Positions 23,934 through 51,330 of a stretch of 64,000 nt of DNA are shown piece by piece. Under the pieces are notes generated by a model. The model was not told the DNA's origin. It made no database searches and saw nothing but the letters and a program-made list of their open reading frames with translations. The DNA is from Asterella californica (lineage: Eukaryota; Streptophyta; Marchantiopsida; Marchantiales; Aytoniaceae). Position 1 is the first letter of the stretch, and every line of letters starts with the position of its first letter. The translations under genes were made by a program, and so were the position numbers. The stretch covers positions 15,609,001-15,673,000 of the forward strand of contig JAYKYS010000008.1 of NCBI GenBank assembly GCA_036924285.1. Reading direction: 5' to 3'.

Positions 23934-23992
23934 GGTTCATATGCGTCGAGAAAAGAAACATATATTCATACGTCGAGAATGGCAGATTTTAA

Positions 23993-24165
23993 CAGAGATT
24001 TACTTGATCCACCCCCAGATAGAATCCCGGACTTGATCCACCCCCTCTTAACGATACCCTTCTTGATCAACCCCCAAACTGGCTACCGCCCGCTCTGTAA
24101 GTAACTTTACCACATGGACGTCCAGTCAGGTACTCCGGTCAGCTTTCCGAAGCTGACGTGTGATC
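23993..24165 (+). repeat. Left terminal inverted repeat of the MULE
   Basis: About 173 bases matching the reverse complement of 32923-33095 with a handful of differences. The outermost part contains three direct copies of a motif close to CTTGATCCACCCCC, a plausible repeated transposase-binding unit. Confidence 0.92.
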
Positions 24166-24318
24166 TGAACGGGAAGAAAGTTGACGTGTGACCTGACGCG
24201 GATCAGATGTCAGTTTGTGATCTCCGACGTGGTACAATGTTAGATTAATGCGCGGGAAGACAAGAAGGACTGTGCAGCAGAATGTTACATTGCGTAGAGT
24301 TTAGTGCAGCACGTTAGC

Positions 24319-24384
24319 GTTGAAGTTTTAGAGTGCTCGGCTCATATTCTCGTTGAAGTTTTAGAGTGCTCGGCTCATATTCTC
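24319..24384 (+). repeat. 33-bp tandem duplication upstream of RPA-like copy 1
   Basis: The unit beginning GTTGAAGTTTTAGAGTGC at 24319 is repeated exactly from 24352, ending four bases before the ATG at 24389. It lies where the 5' leader or promoter of the RPA-like gene would be. Confidence 0.85.
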
Positions 24385-24388
24385 ATCG

Positions 24389-25162
24389 ATGGCTGTGCAG
24401 ATTATCGCTCTTCGTGAATTTTACGATGAAATCAAAACGATTGGGGAAAATGTAGAACCACGATGGACCAGATGCACGATAGTGAAAATCGTCCGCAGCT
24501 GCAATGGTTCCATGACTTATCAGGCTTGCGCCAGATGTTTGAAAGCTACCGGAGGAGTTCCTAAACAAAAAGAATTCCTATCTCCTGGAGCAAACTCTCC
24601 AAGTCCAAGCAGTTGTTGTTCTCATGTTCGTAGTGTTCGAGCTTGGAGATTCAGTATGTCACTGATGGACTCATCAACAAAGGAATGAAAGGTTGAAGAC
24701 TGTGGTGTTTTCACAGTGTGGCAAGCCGGGAATGAACTCTTAGGCATGACAGCGACAGATTTTTCCATTTTGTCTGAAGGGGAACAGAAGGAGCTTATCC
24801 AATCTACTATTTTGCGAGGATTTTGGGAGCTGCAAATCGGTCTCAGTCGTAAAAATAGAGAACGCACAGTGTTCGCAGCGCGTAGAGTAGGATGTTCAGA
24901 AGCAATTTCTGATGTTATCGAGCGAGTTGGGATACAGTCTATTGTTTGGGACATGGACCGATTGGTGATGGAAGAACCTATAGTCATAATTAAACATGTT
25001 GATCATTGCCGGGACGTATTGACTAGGTTTCGCCAAGTTAGAGATCATATTGCAGAGGTGAAAGACCGAACTGTGGGTATGTGTGAAGAAATAAAGAATA
25101 CACTCTGTGTGTGCGAAGATGCAATTGAAAACCTCGAGAAATTATACAGTTTGTTAGAGTAG
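24389..25162 (+). pseudogene. RPA-C-like (zinc-ribbon/OB-fold) protein, copy 1, one in-frame stop
   Basis: From ATG 24389 the frame runs about 257 codons to 25160-25162, interrupted only by TGA at 24686-24688. The N-terminal part has WTRCTIVKIV, YQACARC (Cys-x2-Cys) and a later Cys-Cys pair, then RFSMSLMD. After the stop, the same frame continues with KVEDCGVFTVW and NELLGMTATDFSIL. This order (TI-x-I strand, zinc ribbon, RF-x-L-D strand, then ELLG-x-TA) is that of the C-terminal DNA-binding domain of replication protein A large subunits. A helical C-terminus follows. Copy 2 at 28653-29423 aligns across the whole length and has no stop, so the TGA looks like a single nonsense mutation. RPA-like proteins are known in plant Helitrons; I know of none established in MULEs. 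Confidence 0.7.
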
Positions 25163-25738
25163 TGAAAGAGTCTATTTTGATAACAATGTTGGGTAATATT
25201 ACGGAATAAAATATATCTTCTTCTATATATGTTGTTATCTATTTCGATAACAATGACCGATAATTTTGCGGAATAAAATGTATGTTGTTATTTTGTTTCG
25301 AATGGTTTTAGAAATGAATGCGTTTTCGAACTTCAAACGGAACAAACTGAACTTCAAAAGCTTTGATATCCTTTCTCAGACTTCCTTCAAAAAGTCGAGA
25401 GAAATTAAAGCTACTTCAAGCTTTCGATTCACTTCCTCACACCCTTTCGAGTAGGAGAGTTTCTCACGTTTCGATTCACTTCCTCACACCCTTCCAGTAG
25501 GAGAGTTTCTCACGAGAGCCAAAATAGTCGAGAGGAGAGTGGAGAAGTTCAGTCGAGAGGAGAGTCGAGAATATTCGAGGAGGAGATCGGAGAGGTATCG
25601 ATAGAGGAGAGGTTTCGAGGAGGAGATCGGAGAGGTTTCGATAGAGTGAGGCTGCGAGGTCTAAGCGAGGCTGCGAGCTTTGACTGAGTAAGGTTGTTGT
25701 AAAATTGAATTAACTCTGAGCGATTTTGAATCGCTGTG

Positions 25739-27928
25739 ATGAAAACGAGAGAAGTTCCAATTCGAGGTCGAGGCGGAGGCGTTGGAAGAGGACGAGAGGG
25801 AGGCGTTGGAAGAGGACGAGAGAGCGGAGGGTACCACGACGTACCCATCGAAGTGTCGATCGAAGTGTCGAGAGAGCGGAGAGTACCACGACGATCCTGT
25901 GAGTTAACTAGATGCTAGAAGTGCATGTGTTTATCGATTGGAATTTGTGAGTTAACTAGATGCTAGAAGTGCATGTGTTTATCGATTGGAATTTTGTTTT
26001 TCATGTTAGGGTTAGCGAAACGAACATGTTCGCGTAAGATTGGTGCAATTGGCAGAGTGGAACACGTCAGTTTCGCCTTAGACAAGAGCGATACACATGT
26101 ATCGCCCTGCGGGAGGGCGAAACATGATGTATCGCCTGTTTACTTTGCATTGAGCAGGGCGATCCATGCTGTTTCGCCCTAGTGGAGGGCGAAACAGCAT
26201 GGATCGCCCTCCCATAGAAGAAATTGTTCTTACTGGGCAGGGCGAAACAACATGTATCGCTTTCCCATAGAGGCAATTGATCGCACTGGGCAGGGCGAAA
26301 CAGCATGTTTCGCCTTGCCGGTCGTATGTGTAATCAATGGGCAGGACGATACATGTTGTTTCGCCCTTCCGGAGGGCGAAACAACATGTATCGCCCTGCC
26401 GGTCGCATGTGTTCCCATCGGGCAGGACGACACATGCTGTTTCGCGCTTCTGGAGGACGAAACATGCTGTATCGCCCTCCCATAGAAGCAATGATCGCAT
26501 TGGGCAGGGCGACACATGCTGTTTCGCCCTGCCGGTCGCATGTGTTCTTACCGGCAGGGCGATACAGCATGTATCGCCCTTCCGGAGGACGAAACATGCT
26601 GTTTCGTCCTGCCCAGTGCGATCAATTGTCTCTATGGGAGGGCGATACATGCTGTTTCGCCCTCCAGCAGGACGAAACAACATGTTTCGCCTTGCACATC
26701 GCGAATATTCTTTTCTCCCTTGACTCATAGATATTCCTTTCTCTTCGTCAATACTTGGATTGTTATGTTTACGTTTTTGGACAATTTTAATTTGTATTCC
26801 TTCTTTTTAGCTGATGAGGAAATGGAGAGCATGAAGGAAGGACCTTCATTGTTTCACTATACTCACGAGGAGGATGAACGATATCATCTTAAGTGGTGTT
26901 GGGTCGAAAAGGAGGAAATGGAGAATTGTTTACAAGGAGTAGAAGAAGAAGCTGTCGATCGACTTGGGTTACTTATTGCTCTCTCCTTTGAGTTCCCTCG
27001 TCCTGATGTGAGTTTTACTATCTTTCAACCGAGTTTTACAATGATTCTTGTGTGTTTAAAGATTCAAACATTGCTTTGACTAGCATACTTATCCTTATTA
27101 TTATGTATTTTGCAGATTCCTTTTTGTATAGAATTCATCCAGTCATATGAAGAAGAAAGTCGTCGAGCTATTGTTCAAAGATGTCATATTGTATTGGATG
27201 AGTCTTTTATCCGAGAGTCTTTAGTTTTGCCAATGGGAACATCAGTACCTCGTCCTCATCATGTGAAGAGATCTTTGATAGAGGATTGGTTTCCCACAAA
27301 AGACGAGAAGGGAAAACGATATTTACTTTGGATGTGTGAGTTTTCAGAGTGGAGACCGGTGTTCCAACTTATCAATTGTGTTCTTTTGGCTCGTAGAAGA
27401 CCAAAAGAAGTTCCGGGACATTTAGCTCTATACGTGAAAAGTAAAGTAGAGGAGAGTGAGGAGGATTACGATTGGACTGAATTCATTTTGGATTCTTTGG
27501 ATGCTGAAATCTCTTCTATGAAAAAGCACATGAACAAAGAGAAGTTGGTACGACATCCAGAAACATGGGTGGGTATGATCTTGACTCACCTCATGATACA
27601 CATCGGTATACTTCCTGAAGGAGGAAGAGTAGAATCTTCTCGGAGAATTCAACAATCATCAAGTAAGTTTTTGTTTTCAGTTCTAAAATGTTTTATGACT
27701 TTTAAAACTTAGATTTTCCAGCATGGATAAACATAGGAATTTAATGTGATTATGTTCAAGTCCTAGTTCATGACACTCTCATGGATCTTGCAGATACTCC
27801 TCCTGCTGAGCAAGATCCTCAGGCCTCTCTTCATGTTCCTCTTGATCAAGATCCTCAAGCATCACTTCAAGATCCTCAAACATCACTTCAAGATCCTCAA
27901 TCCTCTTATCATGCTCCTCCTTCATCAG
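25739..27928 (+). CDS. Spliced MULE-borne gene of unknown function (at least four exons, 3' end uncertain)
   Basis: Inferred exons 25739-25898, 26811-27007, 27116-27662 and 27794-27928. Each intron has GT...AG ends (GTGAGT/TTTTTAG; GTGAGT/TTTGCAG; GTAAGT/CTTGCAG; then donor GTAACA), and all three joins keep one reading frame, which strongly supports the model. The protein starts with an RG/GR-rich segment (VGRGREGG repeated), continues with an acidic and aromatic region (FHYTHEEDERYHLKW), a larger globular part (WFPTKDEKGKRYLLWMCEF, EHR-poor, Lys/Glu-rich), and ends in QDPQASL-type repeats. I do not recognise any family. Introns 1 and 4 carry the palindrome arrays. The last exon after 27929 could not be fixed; it must lie before about 28550. 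Function could be accessory to transposition or captured cargo. Confidence 0.6.
25899..25994 (+). repeat. 48-bp tandem duplication that doubles the intron-1 splice donor
   Basis: The unit starting GTGAGTTAACTAGATGCT at 25899 is repeated from 25947. The first copy begins exactly at the inferred exon-1 donor, so an identical donor sequence lies 48 bases downstream. Confidence 0.85.
26088..26693. repeat. Array of about 15 short palindromes (GGCGAAACA...TGTTTCGCC), intron 1
   Basis: About 15 imperfect palindromes of 22-26 bases, each like GGGCGAWACAnnATGTWTCGCCC with variable centres (ACATGCTGT, ACAACATGT, ACAGCATGT). They are separated alternately by short spacers of about 8 bases (e.g. TCCGGAGG, AGTGGAGG) and long spacers of about 30 bases. 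Long spacers fall into two types: one containing CCCATAGA...GATCGCA...GGGCAGG, the other GCCGGTCGCATGTG...GGGCAGG. One long spacer of the first type occurs inverted near 26606-26640, so larger stems are possible. The array fills most of intron 1 of the unknown MULE gene. It is not a CRISPR array: units are self-complementary and spacers are recurrent. Confidence 0.85.
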
Positions 27929-28101
27929 GTAACATATTACTAGTTGACTCACCTCTAGTTGACATTTGTATTTCTTTTGATCCTTTTGTACTAGGCGTCT
28001 TTTACTTGTTGGACTTGTTGGACTTAAATATATTTAATGAGAATTACACTTAGTATAGTTTCCTGAATGCTTCTTATTAATCCATATTTGTTTCGCGTCA
28101 C

Positions 28102-28480
28102 CAGGGCGGAACATGCTTGTACCGCCTCTGACGGGACACTCTGCGAAGGTGAAACATTTATGTTTCGTCTTCCGATATCACGAAACACTAATGTTTTGTC
28201 GCGGGAGGGCGGAACATTATTCATATCGCCTCTGGCGAGAACTCGCCAAGGATCTGGGAGGGTGAAACATCAAAGTTTCGCCTTCTGAAATCGCGGTACA
28301 TTAGTGTTTCGTCGCGGGAGGGCGGAACATGTGTGTCTCGCCTCTGGCGAGAACTCTGGGAAGGCGAAACATGGGTGTTTCGCCTCCAGCCAGAGCGAAA
28401 CTAGGAAGTTTCGCACTCCCTGGGCGAAACACTCTAGTATCGCGCTGGGTGGAGGTGCGGTACACAGTGTTTCGCCTCCA
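28102..28480. repeat. Second, more diverged palindrome array (about 11 units)
   Basis: Eleven or so units of the same design as the array at 26088-26693 (GGCGGAACATG...TACCGCC, GGCGAAACATGGGTGTTTCGCC and others), with more variable centres and spacers such as GGGAGGGCGGAAC and CTGGCGAGAACT. It lies downstream of the exon ending at 27928, so probably in intron 4 of the same gene. Sharing of the TTTCGCC core points to a common origin or a common binding protein. Confidence 0.75.
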
Positions 28481-28652
28481 GCGGGAGTAAAAGTGGTAAC
28501 TTTAACGATGATGGAGGCCAAATAATCTAACGAGGAACAAGAACCTGTATTGCTTTAGATTAAGCATTGCATAATGAAAGAAAGATAGTACAAGCTAACC
28601 ATTTACAACCGGTATCATTCCTAAAACTCTTTAAGTTTTTGTAATGCTTCTA

Positions 28653-29423
28653 CTATCTCTGATAGCTCTCCCTTCTGTTCTCGTTGGAGCTCAACAACCG
28701 CTTGCAAATCTCGAACTTACCGAGCAAGCTCGATTCAATGTCTTCTGATCTATCGACTAATGTCTGTACTCGATGGTGTAACCTCTCCATCTCTAGAACT
28801 TCAGCGTTATCCCTCAACTTCGCCTTCTCACTTCCTTCCGAAGGATAAAATGTTACACTATCCATTGCAGAAGCAAGATCTTCTATTCTGTCCTCGAACT
28901 CGTCCAATTCTGCTATTTCATGTTCCACGTCGAACACCGTATAACGATTTTGCATTGTGTTCAATCCTATTTTGAAGCGCCACTTCTTCGAACAAACAAG
29001 CCTGAAAAGTCTATCTTGCTCTTCAGATGATAATTTCTCAAAAGACTCTGCGGTCATCCCTAATAACTTTTCTCCTATACTCCAAACAACCACAATTGGT
29101 AATGCTGCTTCCTGTCGATCACAAACGCTGTAATCAATCAGTCCTAAATGAAATCGATACTGCCTCTTATTTCCCCTTTGACCACAAGCATGCCAAGTCT
29201 TTCTGCTGTCGGGCTGTACTTGACTGAAATATAACATCTTCTTAGCGGAGCTTGATGAGGTCTGCGAAGAGTCTATCACTTGCTTCAAGCACCCCGGGAA
29301 ATTGCAAGCAAAGTACGATATAGAACTCCATTTCCGATTTTTGATTATCCTTTGAATAGAAGCAACCACCCACATGCAAGGTATGTTACTGATACACTCT
29401 TCAAATTCAGCCAAGGAACACAT
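28653..29423 (-). CDS. RPA-C-like (zinc-ribbon/OB-fold) protein, copy 2
   Basis: Start chosen at ATG 29423 (MCSLAEFEE), giving 256 residues, the same length as copy 1; the open frame extends 15 codons further upstream without an ATG. Motifs: ASIQRI strand, YFACNFPGC and WHACGQ (zinc-ribbon cysteines), QYRFHLGLID, then VVVWSIGEKLLGMTAESFEKLSSEEQ, matching the RPA large-subunit C-terminal fold, followed by a long helical acidic tail (about residues 155-256, coiled-coil-like). RPA-type domains bind single-stranded DNA; here the role in the element is unknown. It is convergent with the unknown gene and codirectional with the transposase gene. The full open frame suggests selection more recent than in copy 1. 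Confidence 0.65.
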   Translation of the reverse strand: MCSLAEFEECISNIPCMWVVASIQRIIKNRKWSSISYFACNFPGCLKQVIDSSQTSSSSAKKMLYFSQVQPDSRKTWHACGQRGNKRQYRFHLGLIDYSVCDRQEAALPIVVVWSIGEKLLGMTAESFEKLSSEEQDRLFRLVCSKKWRFKIGLNTMQNRYTVFDVEHEIAELDEFEDRIEDLASAMDSVTFYPSEGSEKAKLRDNAEVLEMERLHHRVQTLVDRSEDIESSLLGKFEICKRLLSSNENRRESYQR

Positions 29424-29468
29424 TGAAACACTGAAGTAGAAAACACGACTTGGCGCAACGAATTGCAA

Positions 29469-29816
29469 GGATAGTATGCGAATAGAGTTCGCTCAACACT
29501 GAGTCAATATCGTTTGGATCGTCTCGTCCTCACTGACTCGCTCTCTAACCAGCCTCACACCAAAACAACCATATAACGCTACTACTAAAGAGCCGTTGGA
29601 AAGCTCCAATGGAGCCGTTGGACAGCTTCATTGGGTTGGAAAGCTTCATTGGATACTATGGTAACCCATATTCGAGGAAGTACAACCTGTAACCATAAAG
29701 CCCATGTTCGAGATCGGTGTGATCTGCTCAGTCCTCACTCACTTCTGCGTGTATCTGCATTGATACACGGACACAATAAATAAGAATATGAATGAATGTT
29801 TCAAGAAATTGAAACA
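29469..29816. other. Spacer between RPA-like copy 2 and the transposase
   Basis: No gene. It contains short related direct repeats around 29590-29655 (GAGCCGTTGGA, GTTGGAAAGCTTCATTGG). It must hold the 3' end of the transposase transcript and the promoter of the RPA-like gene, but no certain site is visible. Confidence 0.5.
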
Positions 29817-32516
29817 TTACAGCAAAGATATCACTCTTGGAAAGGAGTTATGTAACGAACCTGCTGGTACATCACTATTGTTGTCTGTGAAATCGAGTTC
29901 TTCATCCGAGGCCATGAAAATTACATCGTCCTCTCGATGCAATGTTGGCATGTTAGATTGATTCGATAGGTGCTCAGAGTAATTGATATCAGCTATATCA
30001 TTTCTTTGACATGTTCTAACATTGTGTCCAACCTGCTTGCACCTACTACATCTTCCAACTTGACTTTGCCTGCTACCACTAGCCGTAGTAGATGATCGTC
30101 TAGTTCTACGAATAGGAAATTCAGAGGGAAAATGAGATATTTGTTCATCTGCTACATCGAACTCCATTTCCACAGCATTAACACTATCACTACCAGTAAC
30201 AAGAGGTCCTGTGACACTCTCTTCAACAAAATCCGTTGTATTTCCTGGAACTCTAACTTGTGAGGATTGAGTATTGTTATCCATTCGCACCACTCGGTGC
30301 CTTCCTCGTCGAATTGCAATAGGAGGTGGACCACAAGTCCAAACTGGTTCTAAGTCGTCGATTACTATTGGAGGCAGATGCTGTTGTCCATAAATTGAGA
30401 ATAGTGACGAACTGTACCAAATTTGATCAACGCGTGTCATAGGATTCTCTCCCATCTCTCTGTCGAAGGTAATGACATGTCCACACGGCCATCCCATTTC
30501 TTGATATTCAACGCAAGTGCACGTCCATTCGAGTTATGTTTCACTACATGAGTTGATCCGGAACTGTGACAGCGAACTGTGGCCTCTCTAATGTTGGAAA
30601 CTTGACAAATGAATCCTTCTGCAGCTTGCTCATTCTCTGTCTGTCTGCTCCTTGCAAATTTGGTGAGTAGATTTGTCTCCTGCTCCAATTGTTGACGTCT
30701 CGTGGTAAATTGTTGCATGATGTAATACCAAATTTCAAGTAAAATTCTCAAAGGAGCATTAAAACGGATGGTCCTCAGAGCATTGTTCATACTCTCAGCT
30801 ACATTCGAAGTTACCTTCCCATATCATGGCTTCGGAAATGCACATCGACTATATCTTTCTGGCATGATACCTCGTAAATAACTAGCCAACTGCTTGCCTC
30901 GATCTCCAAAATCATCGAGTTTTCTTAAAACCTCGTTATACCTGTAACATCAAAATGCATTAAACACATCAAACAAACTATTTCTATAATTGACATAACA
31001 AGCTACACCAATTAACCAAATGCTCACAACTGAAATAAGAAACTACACCAACTAACCAAATGCTCACAAATGAGATGAAATTCTTACGCTTCTCGATTTT
31101 TAGCGTATAAACAAGCCAAAAAAGGTTTTTCGGCCTCCTTGCCAAATCTCGCCCTCACGTTGATTCTAATGTGTTGGGCGCAATGACCATGGGTCACAGT
31201 CGGAAATATCTCAGCAACAGCTTTCTCCAATCTTTTTTGTCGATCGCTGATGATGACAGTTTGAGGACTCTCAATTCCATTTATTGATTCTTTCAATAAA
31301 CCACAGAACCAAGTCCAGTTGGATGTGTCCTCTCTCGGAGCTACAGCATAAGCTAAAATGATAGCCTGGTTTGCACCATCGAGTGTGGAAGCCAAGAAAA
31401 TTTGACAAGGAAACTTACGAGACTTTGAATGACAAGCGTCAAGACATATCACTTTCTGACAGGAGCTAAAAGCATTACGAGTAGCACTGGGACAGACAAA
31501 AAAACGACTAAAAATTGTTGGATGATTTATCCATGTGCCCCAGTCTACAACAGCTAACGGATCCACATCTTTGATCTTTCTGCATACACATGGAATATAA
31601 TGAAAAGAGACTGTCTGATTACCTTCTAACCAATCTCGCGAATGCTCACGGCTTCTCCAGACTTGGTTATATGGAGCTCGTTTATTAAAACTAGTCCGAA
31701 TTTCTTCCATTAAATTCCTGATTGGGATGTTGGGATCTATTGCTACTCTGTTACACAAAACTTGTGCAAGGAATTTAGAGTTTGAGGCTGGTCCACGCCA
31801 ATAAGCTTGTTGTCCAGGACAAGTATGCTCCAGATTACACACACTAATGGTTATTCTCCCTGTGAATTTTCCTTTCTGTGCACGTACTCTCCATTTGCAC
31901 GACTGCGTTATTGACCCTTCTCTTGCCTCAACTCCAGTTCCATAAAATGTTTCTCTACCAGAGGTTAAATATCGCATCTTCTTGCCACATCGACCATTCT
32001 CAGGAACTCGCCGTGTTCTTTGGATCACAGTGACATCTTCTCGTCTTCTGCTCTCTCTCTCTCTCTGTCGTTGGGTGAACTCGTGGAAGCTACGAGGCTG
32101 ACTACTTATCAAATTTGGATCCAAGTTCTCGTTGTTTTCAACTCGCTGTTCTATTGATTTTCTGCAACGAATCCTCCCTCCATAACGACAAACGAGCACT
32201 CTGTGACTAGAATATGACTTGAGCTTGTTACAAGCTCTACTGTTCAGAAAACACCAATAATCTATAGCAAAGTCGAAATCCTTCCAGCATTGAAAATCTC
32301 CCTCAACTTCAGTGTCCCTGCGGCCTCTCTCAAGGCGTCTAATGTTTTTCCTTGAAGTACGCAGTCAGCCAGACGGGCGTCAATCATCTCTTGCTGCCAT
32401 CGCTCTAGTATCGTTTCGTCTTCTTCCTCGTCGCTTCTTGCATCTAAAAAGAATTCCCGCTCTTCATCTTCAAAATGTAATCCATCGAGTGAATCTAAAT
32501 CATTATCCTCCGACAT
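29817..32516 (-). pseudogene. MULE transposase (MURA-like) with SWIM zinc finger and zinc knuckle, disrupted
   Basis: Starts at ATG 32516 (acidic N-terminus). MULE features on the reverse strand: FQCWKDFDFAIDYW near 32280; first catalytic Asp in CLDACH (codon 31438-31440); second in IISDRQ (31243-31245); CAQH; and an intron 30942-31087 (GTAAGA...TTACAG) joining NREA to YNEVLRKL in phase. Then TSNVAESMNNALRTIR, a SWIM finger CTCVEYQEMGWPCGH near 30474-30521, and a knuckle RCSRCKQVGHNVRTC near 30010-30055. The DDE transposase would cut at the TIRs; SWIM and knuckle bind nucleic acid. Damage: a frameshift near 32300, TGA at 30824-30826 (at an Arg position before YGKVTSN, fitting CGA to TGA), and a frameshift near 30521 at the SWIM finger. 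Hence this copy likely depends on transposase from elsewhere. Confidence 0.88.
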
Positions 32517-32753
32517 TATCGCTAAGTGCTTACATGCACTGGATTTAGTGCTTAGCGCTAAGTGCTATGTCCCAGATGTCTCGCTGTTACCCCGCTGTTA
32601 CCACCATGTACTGTGCAAATCTATGTCCCAGATGCCTCGCTGTTATCACCATGTACTACTGTTCACAGATCTGCACTGTGCACAGATCTGCACTGTTAAT
32701 AGCCTTTCCTTCTTTTCCTATCAAGTACTTTGTTTTTCCTGCTGTGCAGTTCC

Positions 32754-32954
32754 GCTTCTCTTCCCGCGCACTAGTTTCTTTCCGCGTCAGGTCAGGTCAC
32801 ACGTCAGCTTTCTTCCCGTGTCAGGTTACACGTCAGCTTTCTTCCCGCGTCGGATCACACGTCAGCTTTCAGCTCAGCTTTCTTCCCGTGTCAGGTTACA
32901 CGTCAGCTTTCTTCCCGCGTCGGATCACACGTCAGCTTTCCGAGCTGACCGGAC
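32754..32954. repeat. Subterminal tandem repeats next to the right TIR
   Basis: About five units built on CACACGTCAGCTTTCTTCCCG(C/T)GTC, including a near-perfect 58-base block at 32811 repeated 70 bases later from 32881. The left end has only about two such units in inverse orientation (24150-24205). Open frames through this stretch are a by-product of the repeat. Confidence 0.8.
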
Positions 32955-33095
32955 TACCTGACTGGACGTCCATGTGGCAAAGTTACTTACAGAGCGGGCG
33001 GTAGCCAGTTTGGGGGTTGATCAAGAAGGGTATCGTTAAGAGAGGGTGGATCAAGTCCGGGATTCTATCTGGGGGGTGGATCAAGTAAATCTCTG
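32923..33095 (-). repeat. Right terminal inverted repeat of the MULE
   Basis: Reverse complement of 23993-24165 with few differences, ending in GTAAATCTCTG at 33095, directly before the target duplication copy at 33096-33105. Confidence 0.92.
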
Positions 33096-33105
33096 CAGAT
33101 TTTAA

Positions 33106-38950: not shown

Positions 38951-39168
38951 TGTTTGAGAACCAAATCAAGTGAATACTCTCCAGTATAGAAGATACATCA
39001 GTAAAGGGATCAGTCGACTCATCATCTCCCAAGAGGGGGTTGTTATATACTCTAACCTATGGATAAAGGTTAGTCACTAATCAGTCACTAGTCATAGAGA
39101 TGTGTCTATAGATGTGACTTATAGAGATGACTATAGATGTGACTATAGACTAGACATTATCTTTAACA
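38951..39168 (-). repeat. 3' LTR of the copia element
   Basis: Shorter than its partner by 25 bases because of fewer units of a minisatellite close to ATAGATGTGACTATAGAGATG. Confidence 0.93.
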
Positions 39169-42100
39169 CCCCCTCTTAATGTCAGTGGTACTGAATATAC
39201 ACCAAGTTCAAGTCTCAATTTTTGAAACCTGTCTGAAGACAAAGGCTTGGTGAATATATCAGCAGTTTGATCATCAGTTGTTACCCATTGAGTAACAACC
39301 TCTCCCGAAATTATTTTCTCCCTGATGAAGTGGACTTGCACTTCAATGTGCTTAGTTCTAGCATGATGCACTGGATTTTTCGCCAATGCTATTGCACTCA
39401 TGCTATCAGTCCAGATTACTGTTGGAGTGTCTTGGTTGACACCTACATCCTCCAACATCCATCTTAGCCAAATGGCCTCTCGTGCTACATTACACGGACC
39501 ACGATATTCTGCTTCAGAGGAGGATAAAGCAATAGTTGGCTGCTTTTTACACTGCCAAGTGATGGCACCTCCTCCCAGCATAAATGCTAATCCAGACATT
39601 GATTTACGATCTGTAGAATCACCTGCCCAATCAGCATCTGTAGATCCAACAAGTCCAAGTGACTTATCTGAGCTATATCTGAGCCCATAGCTGGTAGTTC
39701 CCCTGAGGTAGCGCAAAACTCTCTTTGCTGCCCTCATATGCAAAAATGTGGGAGACTCCATATTCTGACTGAGTTTGCTGACTGCAAACGAAATATCTGG
39801 TCTTGTAGTGACAGCCAGATAAATTAACTTCCCGATCAGCTTCCTGAACTCTGTTGCATCTGCCTGCTCATCATCAAAAGAAGAACTTTGCCACTCCTTT
39901 GAAATAACCATAGGAGTAGGCGCAGGCTTGCACTTCTCCATCTGGAAATCCTGAAGTATACTTTCTTTGTATCTTGCCTGAGAGAGGTATAACATTTCGT
40001 TGTGTTCCAGAAACTGAACTCCAAGACAAAAGTTGAGAAGTCCTAGATCCTTCATATCAAACTCTTGCATTAAAGCTTGCTGAATCTTCTTTACTCCTCC
40101 TTGATTACTTCCGGATATTATCAGATCATCCACGTACAGTAACAGTAACACAATACCTTGAGAAGTAATCAAAACATAGAAGTTTGGATCACCTCTTGTA
40201 GGAGAGAAGCCTTGCTGCTTCAAGAAGGTGTTGATTCTTGTGTACCAAGCTCTTGGAGCTTGTTTGAGGCCATATAATGCCTTGTGCAGCTTGCACACTA
40301 ACTGTTCACCTCCTTGACGGACAAAACCAGGTGGTTGCTGCAAGTAGATATCTTCTTCAAGAATGTCATTAAGGAATGCATTCTTAACATTTGTAAACAC
40401 TTCCAACCATGTTGTTTTGCAAGAGCACAAAGAACTCGGATGGAGTTAAGTTTTACCACAGGTGTGAAGGTCTCTTGAAAATCTTCTCCTGCAGTCTGCA
40501 AATAACCTTTTGCAACAAGGCGAGCCTTGTATCTCTCAATAGTTCCATCCGCATGCCTCTTGATCTTATAAACCCACTTACAGCCAAGTGCTTTCCTGTT
40601 TGCTGGAAGAGGTACTAGGCTCCAGGTTGCATTTTTGAATAATGCATCATATTCTTCCTGCATAGCACGTCTCTATTGCTCCTTACTGAAAGCTTCCTCG
40701 AATGTAATAGTTTCTCCATCACCTTGAGCTTCAGCCATGAGAATATAATCCTCTAGCCTTGCAGGAACCTTCCTTGTTCTGATAGGTCTCCTTGGTTGGG
40801 TAGCAAGATTCGAATATGGAGTAGTCTGATGAATGAGAGGCGAATCTGCTGTAGTTGGACCTGATTCAGTAACCTCAACTTGTGTGGGTGATGTAGGAGG
40901 TGGTTCTAGTTGAGCTTGAGGTTCTTCTTCATGGTTCTCTGAAGTGGTGTTTGGATAGAGAGAGGTGGCAGGTCAGAAAGATGGTGTTGTGAGTTTCGAG
41001 ATGAAGGGAGCTCTAAAAACACTACATCTCGACTGATGATGATCTTTCTTGCAGCACTCAATAGTCTATATCCCTTTTCTCTTGCTGGATATCCTATGAA
41101 TGTACAGATCTTAGATCTATCATCAAACTTTTGGAGTAATTTTCGAGGAGTTGAAACATATGCTTTACATCCAAAAATTCGTAGGTTAGAGAGGTCTGGT
41201 TTCTTCCTTGTGAAAGCTTCGAATGGAGTTTTGTTGTTCACAGCATTTGTTGGACTTCTGTTGAGAAGGTAGACTGCAGTATTGACAGCTTCAGCCCAAA
41301 GATCTTTTGGAAGATCTTGCTCAAGAAGAAGACTTCTTGTCATCTCCACAACAATTCTGTTCTTCCTTTCAACAACTCCATTTTGCTGTGGCGTGTAAGC
41401 TGTAGTCAACTACCGCAGTATCCCCTTCTCAGTGAAATATTGGTCAGCTGCCTTGGAAGTGAACTCTCCTCCTCTATCACTTCGTAGCTGCTTCACTTGC
41501 TGTCCAGTCTGTCTTTCCACCATGATAACAAGCTGTTGAAGATTCGAGAGTGCTTCAGACTTTCTTAACAGGAAGAAAACCCAAATGTATCTCGAGAAGT
41601 CATCAACAACCAGCATAAAGTACTTAGAACCTCCAAGCGAAATAGTCTCAGTAGGTCCACAAAGATCTGTATGTAACAGCTGAAGGATATATGTTGCCCT
41701 TGTTGCAGTAGTCTTGAAGAACTTCCTTCGAGTCTGTTTAGATCTAAGACAAACTTCACACGGGGTGTTTACAAGGGCGAGTTTGGAAACACCAAGTGCT
41801 AAGTTCTCATGAAACAACTTCTGCATTCTCTGATAGTGTAAATGTCCAAGTCGTAGATGCCATAAATGGCTCATCTCTGTTACAGCAGCTAGAACTGGAG
41901 CTACCAAGGATAAGGCTTGTAACTCATACAAGTGGTCAACCTTCAGCCCTGTAGCTACTACAGATCCTTGGTCAAGAATTGAACATCCTTGTGCATCAAA
42001 TGACAGTTGAAATCCGTTTGCAGCAAGTTTACCAACACTCAGAAGATTATGCACTACACCAAGTACAAACCAGACACCTCCAATGGTTTTTATCTGACCT

Positions 42101-43170
42101 GAAGGTAGCTTAATACGAATGTTACCTTCCCCCTGGACTTGGTAGCCCTTACCATCTCCTAGTCGAATCTCTGGTCCATTAAGAGGATGAAAGTCTTGAA
42201 ACCACTCCTTCTTTGAGGTGATATGATTTGATGCTCCAGAATCAATCCACCATTATTGATCATGAATATCTGTGTACATGGCATTGAAGAATAACTTCTC
42301 TTCATGATCAGTTGCTTGTACGAAATTACCTCTGTTGTTGGTGTTGGAACGTTGATCAAATGTCTTTTTCCTGCACTCATATGCATAGTGACCACGTTTC
42401 TTACAGTAGTTGCAGTTCCCAGGTTTAGGTTTGTTGGAGTTGCCATCTGAATCTCGTTTGTTGAATTTGCCTTTCTTGTTGTCCCAAGGCTCTTTTTGTT
42501 TTGGTTGTGAGTCTTGAGGTCTACCACGTTTATGATCTCTCCTCTTGGAGAAGAAAGCTGAGTCAGTTGTGGTAGTTGCTTGAGTTGACTTGGTTTCGAT
42601 ATTCATTGCTTCTTGCAAAGCTAGTGTTTGCAGTTCTTCAAATGAGACAGGCTCCTTGCGAACATCCACTGCTTTGACGAAGTGCTCATACGGTTCTGGT
42701 AAGCTCTGGAGCACTATAAGCACCAAGTCGTCCTCATCTATACCTCCACCCAGATTCTTCAGTTGTTGTAGCAACCCTTTGACAATATTGAAGTGCTCTT
42801 CGAGTGAGATGCCTGCAACCATCTGCAAAGTGTTTAACTTTATGTGTAGCATTCTCTTCCTCCCTCGAGCAGCTCCTTCGTGCTTCTTGGTGAAAGTATC
42901 CCAAGCATCTTTAGAGGTTTTAGCCTCCAAGATATCCATAATTCCTGAGTCTTTTATGGTCATCTTGATGATAGCAAGTGCTTGTTGATCTCTTTTGTTC
43001 CAAGCTTTGACAGCAGCTGGTGAATCGATAGGTCTTTCTTCCTCACCCAACACTATGTCCCATAAGTCGTAGTTCTGAAAAATGGCTTGAACCTTGAAGC
43101 ACCATATTGGATAGTTGGTGCTATCTAACTTATGATGATCATGAAGTAGGTTATCACTAACGTTAGCCAT
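39150..43170 (-). pseudogene. Copia gag-pol, interrupted by stops and frameshifts
   Basis: Gag begins at ATG 43170 (MANVSDNLLHDHHKLDSTNY) with a UBN2-type domain, then knuckle CNYCKKRGHYAYEC (42373-42414). TAA at 42253-42255 falls just before WWIDSGASNHIT, the protease active site. Integrase (HTDLCGP, DDFSRY, then YTPQQNGVVERKN) is cut by TAG at 41410-41412 before LTTAYTPQQ. A frameshift lies near 40960, TAG at 40673-40675 replaces the Trp of KEQ-W-RRAM, and another frameshift lies near 40410. The RT then continues with the active-site YVDD (40125-40136) and RNase H (DADWAGD, KHIEVQ..FIRE). Stops at Gln- and Trp-like positions fit C-to-T changes. The reading order is complete otherwise; no domain is missing. 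Confidence 0.92.
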
Positions 43171-43890
43171 CGATCGAAAGTAAAGTAGGTGGGAAAAAAA
43201 TCTGGAACTCCTCAAAGTGGTTGTGGAGGTGGAAGTAGTGACTATATTGTAAACCTCTATAGTCTCGTCCAGCACGGCAAAAATCTCAGAAACGCGAAAA
43301 TTGATCGTTAAGGCCTTCAAAAGTGCAGTCAAAGATCCGTTGACCAAGGGTTCCCCAAAGTGTAACTTCCTTATACGAGGTCCGTTTGGGTCGAAAGTTG
43401 AACTGTTGGAAAGCTCTTTGCAAACCCTTTTTAAAAAGATAGAGCCTTTTTAATCCCAAATCCACTCTCAGATTTGTCTAATTCACCTCCTTCCCCTCCA
43501 AAAATGCAGTCAAAGATAGTTTGACCACACCTGCACTTGTGGATCACGGTGTCGTAGCGAGAGCCTTTCCTTTGAGCAAGGGCGTACCTTCTGGCTGTGG
43601 CTAGCGATCAATGCACAGCAGAGCGACAAGTTTCATGTAGATTTCTCTCTAACTTCCTCGATAACTAAGCACTTTCTTTCTCTCAGTAAAGGGTCAAGAT
43701 AACTACACGAAAACGTTGGATGATCATGGGCACGACAAACGGGATATGTGATGACATGATCTCTCGGTAGTATTCCTCTCCGAAGTTTTTTCTCACTTTT
43801 CAGTTGAAGGTGGTGTGCTCACTCTATGTCATTTTCACTCTCTGGTTCCTCAGTCTCCTTGCTAATGCTCGTGCCTAAGCTCTGATACCA

Positions 43891-46230: not shown

Positions 46231-49200
46231 CTAAATTTTCGCTCCGTTTTCGGAGTGAAGAGAGAACTTTCGTCGATGAAAGAACTTCAACTTGTCATGG
46301 TTGACCCGATCGAATCTCCTTCCTCCCAACTCCTGAAGGTCATATGTGAAGTTGCTCCACACCTTATCTACAACAAAAGGACCAAAATATCTCGGAAGAA
46401 ACTTCTTCCTAGCCCTCTTGAATATGATAGCATCATACAACATAACCCAATCTCCGACTTGAAAAGGTTTTACCTCCCTCTTGCCCAATCGTTTGTCGTA
46501 ACTCTTCTTTTGATACGCCTGAGCTCGTTCCATCCGGATCATTGCTACCGCTCGGGTCTCTTCCAACTCCATGAGTTGCTCCCTTCTTGATCTAATCACG
46601 TCTTCTCCTCTCGACCTCTTCAACTTTCGTTGAATAGTTTGAAAAGTATCCAATTCGAATTGGATGGGCAACTTGGACTCCACTCCATAAACCAGTCGAA
46701 ATGGGGAGTATCCAGTAGAAGTCTTTGTTGTCGTTCGATACTCCCATAAGATAGCATGTAGCCTCTTATCCCAAGTATGTTTCGCAGTCTCAACACCAGC
46801 ATCTTTGGCGAGCATCATACAAAGTGTAAGATTGGTCTTCTCCGCAAGACCATTAGCATTTGGTTTGTATGAGGTCGTTACTCGTGGCTTGATAGAAAAG
46901 TGTTGTAGCATAGCAGTAGTCATGCTCCCTACAAACTCTCCTCCTCTATCCGAGACCAACTCTAACGGACATCCAAATCTGGTGATGATCCTCTCTCATA
47001 GGAATCTACCGACTTCTGTTTCATTAGTCTCCCTCAAAGGTCTAGCCTCTACCCACTTGGTACAATAGTCAGTGGCGACTACAATGTATCTATTGCCTCG
47101 AGGTGTCTTATTAAGAGGACCTAAAAAGTCAATACCTCATTTCTCAAACGGCCCTAATACTGGAATTGATCTTAACGGAGGTGTTCTAGTAGACTTTAGA
47201 GCAAATGCTTGACATACGTCACAAGTTTTGCAATAGTCTAAACACTCTTTGAAAATCCCTCTCCAGTGATAACCCGCATCCAAAATCTTGAAGGCTGTTA
47301 TCTTACCAGCAAAGTGACCTCCGCAAACAGTTCCGTCGTGAAACTCGTGCATTAGTTTGAATGCCTCCTTCTGACCAACTGCTCTCCTTAGTAACCCATC
47401 TGCTCCTTGATGAAACAGAATTCCCTCCACCATGGTGTAAGGTTTGCATCTCTTGATCAACGCGTTACGTTCTCGGGTATGCATACCTTCTGGAAAAGAG
47501 CCATCTACAAGGAAACTCCAGATTTCCTTGTACTCGTCCGGTATCTCCTCGATGCTTGTGATGGTCATCAGATGCTCGTCTGGAAATGAATCATCAAACG
47601 GTTCTTCTCCCTCATCATCATAAGCCCTTGACAAAAGATCAGCATTCGCATGCTTCTTCCCTGGTCTATCTTCGATCACATAATCGTATTCTGTTAGAAG
47701 GATCTTCCAACGAGCAATACGACCTTCGGCATTAGGCTTATTAAAGATATACTTTAAAGCCTTGTGATCTGTGACTATGGAAAATTTCCCTCCTAGCAAG
47801 TAGTGTCGAAATTTTTTCAATCCAAAGATCACCGCTAATCCTTCTCGTTCAGTCACGGAGTAATTCTTTTCCGCTGGAACCATCTGCATACTAGCATAAG
47901 CTATAGGATGATCATGCCCATCTCCATCTAGCTGACTTAATGTACATCCGATTGTTACATTGGAGGCATCCGTATACAGAATAAATGCTTTACTCCACTC
48001 AGGTTTAGCAAGTATAAGAGCTGTCACTAATGCCTTTTTTAGCTCCTCAAATGCTTCCTTTGCCTTCTGATCATGCACTATCAAGTCAAAATCAACTCCC
48101 TTCTTCATGTACATAGTCAAAGCTATTGCTTTGTTTGAGAAGGAAAAGACAAACCTACGATAATATCCAACCATGCCAAGAAACTGCCTCAACTTTGTCA
48201 AGTTGATCGGAAATGGAAGATCCACAATCTTCTTCACCTTCTCAAGATCTACCGCAATCCCATTCTTGGAAATGATGTGCCCTAACAGCAGACCTTCTTC
48301 GCAGCCAAAGATGCACTTCTCTGGATTTAGAGAAGCGTTGGCTTGCTCCAACCGCTGCAAAACTTTGATCACATGATCAAAGTGGTCCTCCTTTCGTCCG
48401 TACACACAAAAATCGTCAATGAAATCTCGAACAAACTTCCCTATGAATGGTTCAAACACCTTGTTCATGAACCTTTGAAACGTGGCCGGAGCATTACACA
48501 ATCCGAATGGCATCACCCGAAATGCAAATGTTCCCCAAGGAGTAGTGAAAGTAGTCAACTGTTGGTACTCCTGTGCTATCTTGATCTGGTTATACCCACT
48601 ATAACCATCACCAAAGCTATACCACTCATGACCAGCAACTTCCTCCAAAATCTCATCTATAAATGATAGAGGATAATAATCCTTCTTGGTAATTGCATTC
48701 AACTTCTTATAGTCTATGCACACTCGCAGCTTACCATTCTTCTTCTTGACAATCACAATGGGTGAAACCCATTCTGAGTTCTCCACCTCATAGATGAAAC
48801 TCGCCTCCTTCAACTTGTCTATCTCCTCCTTGACCATCATTGCCGTTGTGGGATTGACTCTTCTTTGCTTCTGTCGAACTGGCCTTGCGTGCTCCTCCAA
48901 TTCGATTCGATGAGTCTCGAGAGTCACCTCCTTCAAATCCTTGTAGCTGAAAGCAAACACATGGATATATTTTCGAAATATATCTAGGAATCTACTTTTC
49001 TCTTCTTGAGTGACATTGATACCAAACTTCAAGGTAGAGAGTCTTCTCACAATCTCTGCCTCACTCAACTCTTCTTTGTCAGGATCTTTCTCCACTGCTG
49101 GTCGAGGCAACAAGTCAATAGCACTAAGCTGATGTAATGATTCATCTCGACCAAATCCTTCTTCCTCAGACGAGGATTCTTGATCGTAAGAATCTCCGGT

Positions 49201-51117
49201 ATCTACTTCTGATACACTCTGATCATCCTCCGTATCAGATTCCCAGTAGTCACTAGTGGGTCTATCAGAGTCAGAAGTCACAACTCCAACATCCGAGAGA
49301 GGAACTATCACTCTATGATCTCTAGGCCCAATCCGTAAATATCCCTTGTGCCACCTATCAGTGGTGCGCACAGCTCTCAACCAAGGCCTACCTAGGAGCA
49401 AATCATAACTAGAGTCCTTTAACACTTGAAAGGACATCAACGTTTGAACTCCCATCACAGACACGACCACCTTCTCTAACACACCAAGAGGTCTTACCCG
49501 TTGCTTGTTAGCCATCCCCACAACAATGCTAGCCGGGCGAGTTGGTTCCATCCCCAACTTCTTCATCAACCTCTCCGATATGGCGTTGACAGCCGATCCT
49601 CCATCCACCAATACGTCAGAGACGTAGTGATCATTCAACCGGACTTCAATCTTTGAAGCCCTAGTACATACCTCTGAAGCATGCACATCCACCACACCAA
49701 CTCCCACAGACTTTGATGTCTTGCTCTTGGGTTTCTTCTTCTTGCTTCTCTTAGAACTCAGTCCTCCTCTGAGTTCCCTTCGTAAGCTGGGATTAAGTGC
49801 GATCAGTTGTCCAACAGTGATGTTGGCTTTCTGAACACCCACATCTTCAATCACATCATATCCCGCTTGGGAAGATGAAATGGTGAAATCCGCCATCCCC
49901 AGCTTCCTTCTTGGCTCCCTTGGTGTACTCGAAACATTACTGGAACGAGTACTTCTACTTGCTGACTCCTCCATGAAAACCGGTTCATCAGAAAATCGAG
50001 TTCTTTTCCTTTCTTGAGCTAAAAGCTCCACCGGTGCATGAGAAGAGTTTGAACTCTCTCCTTTCTCGTAAATGGGATCTCGTACGACATCGATAGTAGC
50101 CACCCCCTTATCTCGTCCTTGTGATGGATTTCCTCCACCCACATTCATTCTGACAGCTTCGGCACCTCTTGCTCCGTTGTTAGGACAATTTCGCTGGAAA
50201 TGAGAACCTCCACACGTCCAACAAGTGATTCCTCCAAAGTTACCTTGGTTGCCTCCAAAGTTACCTTGATTTCCTCGGTTGGGATTGTTGTCGTAACCTC
50301 TTTGACCTCCTCCTCCACCTTTGTTCCTCCATTCTCGTAACTGCACCACGTTTATCTTGAGATCCGCAAGAGTATCGGTGATGCTCTTCAGCTCAGCATG
50401 AAAATCAGAGGTGACAGTAGACATCGTTGTTGGGACAAACGGTCTTGGCACCACCGTTGGAGTAGGAGCTGACGTTGAAGCAATCACCAATTGTGATGGT
50501 GCAGGTGCGATCGTCGTGGCTACACCAGGAGTCGGAGTCGACACCAGAGCAGCATGATGAGGTTGGATGATATCTCCTTCATCCAAACTCTCTTCCATAT
50601 TTGTCGCAATCTTGATGGCCTCCGCTTTTGTTGCTGGCTTCTCGTACCTCACTTGGGTTCGAATTGAAGGCCTCAACCCTCCCACCAAGTTCTTGGTCAA
50701 CACTGCTCCAATCCCCGCCATCGTTAACTCCACATTGTCTCCACTCTTCCGTAGGACCGTCCGAAACCGTTGCTCCAACTTATCCACCCTTTCGGCATAT
50801 TGCCGAACTTTCTCGTCGTCCCGTTGCTTCAAATGAGTAAGCTCCACCATGAGCTTCTCATAACTCTCTTCTGGAAGAAATTCTTCGATGAGTGCATTAC
50901 TCAACGTCTCCCATGTGTCCTCAACTGCACCAGGTGTCTTGCTCTTCACTCGGTCTTCATACCACGTAAGAGCAAAATCTTCTAAAAACTCTGGCAGTAA
51001 CAACACCCATTCTTCCTTCCTTCTCACGTTGTTTCCGATGCAACCCCTTTTGAAGTCTCGTACAAATGGTTCTACATCTTCATTGTCCTTCCCATGAAAC
51101 ACTGGTAACTTCCCCAT
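46231..51117 (-). pseudogene. Gag-Pol of the second gypsy element, two in-frame TGA codons
   Basis: Starts at ATG 51117 (MGKLPVFHGKD). Residue landmarks: gag about 10-180; CCHC knuckle CWTCGGSHFQRNCP at 299-312; protease-like active site DGGSAV at 505-510 where most elements have DTG or DSG; RT with FIDD at 899-902 in place of Y(V/L)DD; RNase H (LYTDASN); integrase zinc site (HDGTVCGGH...CKTCDVC). TGA at 47137-47139 follows FEK and precedes GIDFLGPL, where Trp is expected. A second TGA at 46996-46998 falls in GRFL-x-ERIITRFG. The rest of integrase (VSDRGGEFVG, GLAEKTN) continues in the same frame to 46231. Both changes fit TGG to TGA. No chromodomain is visible at the end. Confidence 0.93.
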
Positions 51118-51330
51118 CTTGTAACTATTCTTTCTACCCTTCTAATTTTTGTGCAATAACTACTCGCTAAAAGAGTACGAACATCACCAATTCCATTCGC
51201 GAATAATCTACCATGGGTAAAATGAAAGGAAATGGTTGTAACAACACCTCTTGTGCCATCTCTTCTCCCAAGGTAATCATGAGCCTGAGTCGCATCACCG
51301 CCTTCTCCACCATCCGAATGACGATCTCCA

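Follow-up and report, generated by a model that had tools for sequence, protein, structure and literature searches.

The window analysed here is a 64,000-nt stretch of the genome of Asterella californica (contig label C729:15609001-15673000; genome G000, 516.7 Mb). It contains a 9.1-kb Mutator-like element (MULE) that is bordered by terminal inverted repeats (TIRs) and a target site duplication (TSD) and carries four genes, A to D. The proteins of A and C are RPA-C-like, B is a spliced gene that in other copies encodes a NIF/FCP1-like domain, and D encodes the transposase. The window copy is a dead, internally deleted derivative of a family whose other copies keep the same gene order. The features of the locus are:

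23993-33095, element of 9.1 kb, delimited by TIRs and TSD
23983-23992, no strand, left TSD, CAGATTTTAA, 10 bp
33096-33105, no strand, right TSD, CAGATTTTAA, 10 bp
23993-24165, plus strand, left TIR, 173 bp
24389-25162, plus strand, gene A, RPA-C-like, one exon
25739-25898, plus strand, gene B exon 1, N terminus rich in RG, placed by homology to the gene model of L023
26089-26690, no strand, palindromic array of 26 TGTTTCG/TGTATCG motifs in gene B intron 1
26811-27007, plus strand, gene B exon 2, L023 gene model, borders moved by one base on comparison with L023
27116-27662, plus strand, gene B exon 3, middle domain, conserved and without Pfam family, borders moved by one base on comparison with L023
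27794-27928, plus strand, gene B exon 4, repeats, L023 gene model
28089-28096, no strand, internal deletion junction; gene B exons 5 and 6 (coiled coil and NIF domain) removed
28089-28474, no strand, second, shortened array of 8 motifs between the 3' ends of B and C
28653-29423, minus strand, gene C, RPA-C-like with C-terminal helix/coiled coil
29817-32516, minus strand, gene D, MURA-type transposase with MULE domain, weak SWIM match and a zinc knuckle seen by eye
32759-32957, no strand, subterminal direct repeats (family D2) within the right end
32923-33095, minus strand, right TIR, 173 bp

The two TIRs of the window copy are 95% alike over 173 bp. An exact 10-bp duplication stands at the annotated ends of 10 of the 17 copies compared, while none is found in 272 control pairs of flanks taken from differing copies, and the TSD size is therefore 10 bp. 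Two of the remaining seven copies show a shifted repeat of 9-10 bp, and in five no repeat was found by script. TIR comparison and flank control bear out the borders 23993 and 33095 that an earlier note, made from the sequence alone, had given for this element. That note left the duplication at 10 or 12 bp; 10 bp stands, and the 12-bp direct match arises because the bases adjoining the TSD agree as well. The TSD lies inside the range of 8-11 bp that a MULE survey gives (PMC6446971). Gene D, with an intron placed by eye at ~30942-31087, matches the Pfam MULE domain PF10551 with E 5.7e-14 and 52.8 bits (cut-off 27.6). Its match to SWIM is weak and below the cut-off (E 0.0027, 17.6 bits, cut-off 19.6), with a CxC...CxH pattern in the translation, so that from the proposed MURA/SWIM transposase the MULE domain is firm and the SWIM part remains weak. 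With a DDE transposase domain (PF10551), long TIRs and a 10-bp TSD, the window element is a MULE.

We searched the genome with the TIR and scored the best 40 of 325 candidates, all with at least 93% identity. Twenty-four of these 40 rows make up the 17 elements compared here, the window copy included; the 16 rows left out may hold shorter or non-autonomous derivatives of the family. All 17 copies have TIRs at both ends. Every copy also has genes A, B and D, and 16 of the 17 have C, some of the genes being partial (A covered to 59% in one copy, B to 57% and 60% in two further copies), and the order A> B> <C <D is constant. The arrangement RPA-like gene, spliced gene, RPA-like gene, transposase, which the earlier note had proposed to look for elsewhere, thus recurs across the 17 copies, and its alternative, that other full-length copies would be without these genes, is not borne out. 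Among seven young copies the longest match is 98.9-99.7% identical in all 21 pairs, over 5.4-11.4 kb, from which it follows that the four genes spread jointly and recently. In four copies all four genes are free of stops and frameshifts at 99-100% coverage; a fifth is likewise intact, with A at 97%. We consider the identification of the system as a four-gene MULE very probable. Two young, near-identical copies (C313:8797166 and C729:7433418) have unmatched flanks, as if their ends had recombined from two insertions. In the copy spanning L017 and L018 (C1:20325923-20343865), an insertion of ~9.6 kb splits the transposase gene.

Ten measured copies are 10.0-11.9 kb long, compared to 9.1 kb for the window copy. 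The coordinates of the latter are exact, and its length is that of a deletion derivative. An extra 1.3-3.7 kb is present in 14 of the 16 other copies at window position 28089-28096, and in comparison with L023 both deletion endpoints carry a TGTTT stretch. Coverage of gene B in the window is 52%. Gene A has a premature in-frame stop at about codon 100, gene C a frameshift and gene D one stop and two frameshifts. Downstream of the element, window positions 39153-43449 and 46234-51141 hold long retrotransposon-type open reading frames that look copia-like and gypsy-like by eye.

The NIF domain is invisible in the window copy because exons 5 and 6 are deleted there. The earlier note was right to see a multi-exon gene, and its assignment to no recognised family is superseded by exons 5 and 6 of other copies, which encode a NIF/FCP1-like HAD domain. 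In L023, gene B has six exons with GT-AG borders and 644 residues, arranged as an RG-rich start, a middle domain, repeats, a coiled coil and the FCP1/NIF-type HAD domain (Pfam E 1e-13, 51.7 bits, cut-off 21.8). Phosphatases of this type carry the catalytic motif DxDx(T/V), the second Asp of which is required for catalysis. Gene B does not match this motif: L023 reads DLNGLLV, the host SCP-type protein L057 reads DLDETLV. The replacement indicates that the NIF protein of gene B is probably not an ordinary phosphatase. A further NIF locus elsewhere in the genome (L056) is a 44% match to B with the same intron position and reads DLNGVLV.

In a set of 5.8 billion proteins, the NIF part finds eight proteins at E<=0.01, six of them from Riccia sorocarpa. 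These six proteins, known here as proteins with an 'FCP1 homology domain' (P0001-P0006), align along gene B at 36-38% and are 33-44% identical in the NIF region; five read DLNGLLV and one DLNSLLV. Gene B and the host FCP1/SCP-like phosphatases share the Pfam NIF domain above cut-off and differ in the motif. Two flowering-plant proteins, P0007 and P0008 from Protea and Telopea, match the NIF part with E values near 1e-4, the motif DLNGLLV being present in P0007; proteins of this type are a possible host source of the NIF domain. Searches of PDB sequences returned nothing for gene B at E<=0.1. The NIF part alone gave a single match at E 0.13, which we take as chance.

Gene C matches Rep_fac-A_C (PF08646) with E 2.6e-5 and 24.5 bits in the window and with 23.2 bits in L023, and the curated Pfam cut-off is 28.5. 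For gene A the Pfam scan gives no convincing family, and since C stays below cut-off and A has no match, we label both RPA-C-like, that is, remote homologues. A and C, which the earlier note took as paralogous RPA-C-like proteins, are 26% identical, and the domain match belongs to C. Nine proteins, namely A, C in two versions and six encoded at other loci, were combined into a profile that matches RPA70 DBD-C structures with a best E of 1e-8, and three cysteines are invariant across the nine aligned proteins. Comparison of profiles with hhalign, built from two sequences for A/C and six for the RPA proteins of a second MULE lineage described below, gives 92% for L023 gene A and 78% for gene C against lineage 2. 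Host RPA1 reaches 90% against lineage 2 and 4% against A/C, with E 0.009 in the corresponding region. From these values, A and C look nearer to other element-type RPA proteins than to host RPA1, and the close match to RPA1 that would have marked a host gene is not found. In the 5.8-billion-protein set, gene C alone gives no match at E<=1 and the nine-protein alignment none at E<=0.01; among PDB sequences, gene C has none at E<=1. A MULE lineage with RPA-C-like proteins of its own, as the earlier note had suspected, is supported by the kept gene order and the lack of a close RPA1 match.

Coding constraint was read from changes relative to the codons of young copies that are shared by at least two older copies. 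The ratio of shared nonsynonymous to synonymous changes is 0.59 for A, 0.29 for B, 0.30 for C and 0.18 for D, ratios that rest on small counts (for gene C 15 synonymous and 16 nonsynonymous) and carry no significance test. Within gene B, the middle part (codons 116-300) and the NIF domain each have a ratio of 0.17, and the first 115 codons one of 0.96. Changes seen once have ratios of 0.55, 0.66, 0.44 and 0.70 for A to D. Such a pattern would be expected if B, C and D were under coding constraint in the source lineage and the copies later decayed; for A the signal is weak.

The element contains 35 TGTTTCG/TGTATCG motifs, compared to 7 in the window's remaining 54.9 kb. The count covered the window and ten further copies out of 16, and each of these ten has an array of 20-40 motifs in intron 1 of B and another of 28-56 at the 3' ends of B and C. 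Array length is not constant among near-identical copies. Measured against several of them, the window lacks 1658, 1789 or 1920 bases, sizes in steps of 131 bases that equal the period of the tandem repeat at this place. Folded as single-stranded DNA, 26080-26710 has a z of -24 relative to 20 shuffles.

RPA genes also occur beside a second MULE lineage. A Pfam RPA-C search of the genome gave 50 matches, from which four rows representing host RPA1 were dropped. We read six of the 46 non-host matches (L049-L054), hand-picked at one per contig. In five of the six (L050-L054) the RPA gene stands together with a differing MULE/SWIM-type transposase, and five of the six RPA proteins pass the Rep_fac-A_C cut-off. 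The lineage-2 transposase is a weak Pfam MULE match (best 26.1 bits, cut-off 27.6), with SWIM above cut-off in L054, and reaches 0.2% against gene D in hhalign. TIRs enclose RPA gene and transposase in L052, L053 and L054, and the ends of L052 show a repeat compatible with a duplication of ~10 bp. The RPA proteins of L049, L051, L053 and L054 end in a strongly hydrophobic segment; in L050 the segment follows an in-frame stop, and in L052 none is seen. A tail-anchored DNA-binding protein of this kind would be odd. Directly upstream of the lineage-2 element in L053, positions 1128-2964 hold a relative of gene D with ~80% identity.

With the RPA protein of L053 as query, NIF and RPA genes are found as recurrent neighbours. 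The lists compared are the best 150 of 596 NIF candidates, the best 150 of 515 RPA candidates, the best 150 of 915 MULE candidates and 68 scored of 1250 candidates for the L053 transposase; since they hold part of the candidates, all counts are lower bounds. Ten of 150 NIF rows (high-scoring genes taken as host or small-contig NIF, and one second piece) and six of 74 lineage-2 transposase rows (second pieces of one locus) were dropped. The random control places hits evenly along contigs and ignores families and clustering. Most of the NIF matches start at model position 1 and end at about 71-104, as one exon would. At least 50 of the best 150 RPA matches have a NIF match within 4 kb, compared to a random mean of 0.43 and maximum of 4 in 300 shuffles, and 50 of 51 NIF-RPA pairs among the matches listed are convergent. 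A lineage-2 transposase lies within 12 kb of at least 50 of the best 150 RPA matches (random 0.56). There are at least 25 triples, and by their coordinates 24 of 25 among the matches listed are ordered transposase> NIF> <RPA; for another 24 pairs of RPA and transposase, no NIF on the list lies within 6 kb, which is also the situation of L052-L054. The window family, lineage 1, has the convergent NIF> <RPA arrangement too, plus a second RPA gene, with the transposase on the opposite side. In the Pfam-ranked lists, 7 of 46 RPA matches lie within 15 kb of a MULE match (random mean 0.42, maximum 3), as do 7 of 140 NIF matches (random 1.49, maximum 5). Two RPA-NIF units stand inverted with their NIF genes ~6 kb apart, in a palindromic or nested-like arrangement, at C102:34730797-34741676 and C32:4832964-4839148, and five RPA-NIF pairs lie within 0.4 Mb at C43:6352660-6734342.

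We conclude, with a probability of roughly 0.7, that the window element is the dead remnant of a four-gene MULE which was active until recently and has NIF-RPA accessory genes that act on the element's own DNA. We read the convergent NIF> <RPA pair as a putative accessory module of these MULEs, with an inferred function. Gene D would cut and insert at the TIRs, and the RPA-like proteins would bind element DNA. The NIF protein, which lacks the usual catalytic motif, may serve as an adaptor or reader of phosphorylated nuclear proteins instead of a phosphatase. Together, A to C would most likely act on the DNA of the element, in the window family by way of its two motif arrays. The outcome may be that the element is kept expressed or that its transposition is helped, by analogy with VANC and the motif arrays of VANDAL elements. 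For this motif-array mechanism in particular, our confidence is low and the proposal tentative.

Several observations weigh against this conclusion. Gene C is absent from the C419 copy and covered to only 13% in another; its domain match misses the Pfam cut-off, as gene A misses a Pfam family, and gene A is weakly constrained. AlphaFold models reach a predicted local distance difference test score (pLDDT) of 40 for an RPA-like protein, in a test for the OB-fold, and of 32, values too low for use. Among the lineage-2-type loci, no TIRs were found in L049, L050 and L051, no TSD in L053, and no NIF match in L052-L054. These three loci have no TGTWTCG array either (3, 0 and 1 motifs), so that neither array nor NIF belongs to every RPA-MULE. 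In addition, the paired hits include copies of the same family, which are not independent events. RPA-NIF pairs emerged only with an element RPA as query, and in the Pfam-ranked list none of 46 RPA matches lies within 15 kb of a listed NIF (random 0.47).

The accessory proteins could instead serve transposition or repair directly, the RPA-like proteins coating single strands at excised ends or gaps and the NIF protein modulating host phosphorylation in replication or repair, possibly with the lineage-2 RPA held at the membrane by its hydrophobic segment. Homology to RPA-C, the three invariant cysteines, the potential of the arrays to form hairpins and the hydrophobic segment in five of six lineage-2-type loci would agree with such a role. 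Each protein has, however, a single RPA domain found, A and C are remote from RPA, and to our knowledge most MULEs move without RPA-like or NIF proteins. We regard this explanation as rather unlikely. A similar judgement applies to the idea that the arrays are targets of host silencing, through hairpin RNA and small interfering RNA, or tandem-repeat noise without a role for the element. Variable length between near-identical copies and strong hairpin potential are what it would predict, whereas it is made doubtful by the fact that all ten copies counted keep both arrays in their places and by a motif density ~30 times that of the rest of the window.

That the additional genes are host passengers, spread without a role after a capture like that of Pack-MULEs, is disfavoured as quite improbable. 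MULEs often capture host sequences, as two papers describe (PMC6446971, PMC6431247), and weak constraint on gene A would suit a passenger. Against this, the genes are spliced and intact, the ratios of B and C are low, all 17 copies keep the order, NIF and RPA-like genes recur beside a second transposase lineage, and host RPA1 is distant. A one-off capture is ruled out by the gene set of 17 copies, the constraint ratios, the RPA1 distance and the NIF-RPA recurrence. A Helitron, or a chimera of Helitron and MULE, comes to mind since RPA domains are known in Helitrons, as one paper states (PMC6431247), and the earlier note named RPA-like proteins as a Helitron trait. TIRs, 10-bp TSDs and a MULE transposase nevertheless define the element as a MULE, and no Rep/helicase domain is among the Pfam matches of the four genes. 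Ends and domains refute Helitron identity for the window family, and we give this reading almost no weight. The likeness to Helitron RPA proteins consists in a mobile element with an RPA-type domain, compared by description only; no RepHel was found here, and TIRs and TSDs are present.

The four-gene MULE resembles MuDR and other autonomous MULEs in its MULE-type transposase with a weak match to the SWIM zinc finger, its long TIRs, its TSD within 8-11 bp and the genes beside the transposase. It differs in that the extra genes are RPA-C-like and NIF-like. The usual picture of a MULE is a transposase that is sometimes accompanied by mudrB, VANC or Ulp1-type genes. Extra genes named in passages of two articles are mudrB, mutB, vanB, vanC and Ulp1 (PMC6446971, PMC13317346). 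The closest working model is the VANDAL/VANC system of Arabidopsis, a likeness by published description and not a membership. In VANDAL21, VANC is reported to bind short motifs, which make up dynamic tandem repeats within introns and elsewhere in non-coding parts (PMC5735166). As in the element described here, several spliced genes of a MULE are combined with dense short-motif arrays in such parts that vary between copies. In contrast, VANDALs are termed non-TIR MULEs in a review (PMC13317346), and the element has TIRs; the VANDAL motif YAGTATTAY is arrayed in one orientation, and the motifs TGTTTCG/TGTATCG found here are palindromic. Among the papers listed, no open-access title or abstract opening describes a MULE that carries RPA or NIF genes, a negative that does not extend to the subscription literature, to preprints or to Repbase reports. 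The terms 'replication', 'phosphatase' and 'RPA' are absent from the main text of the 2019 MULE survey (PMC6446971), and 'RPA' and 'phosphatase' from the 2026 gene-capture review (PMC13317346).

A NIF-RPA pair that recurs beside two transposase lineages in one genome would add an accessory module of a new type to a superfamily of cut-and-paste elements. It is conceivable, at somewhat less than even odds, that in a lineage of land plants, probably liverworts, MULEs as a class carry a dedicated module that pairs a DNA-binding protein derived from RPA with a pseudophosphatase of the FCP1 type, retained alongside at least two very different transposases, as self-supplied DNA handling or anti-silencing that in some lineages is membrane-anchored. 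Whether DNA-binding proteins and pseudophosphatases encoded by an element take part in transposition, or help it to escape silencing, would become testable here. The finding is also a warning for annotation, as some liverwort 'FCP1 homology' and RPA-like genes may belong to transposons.

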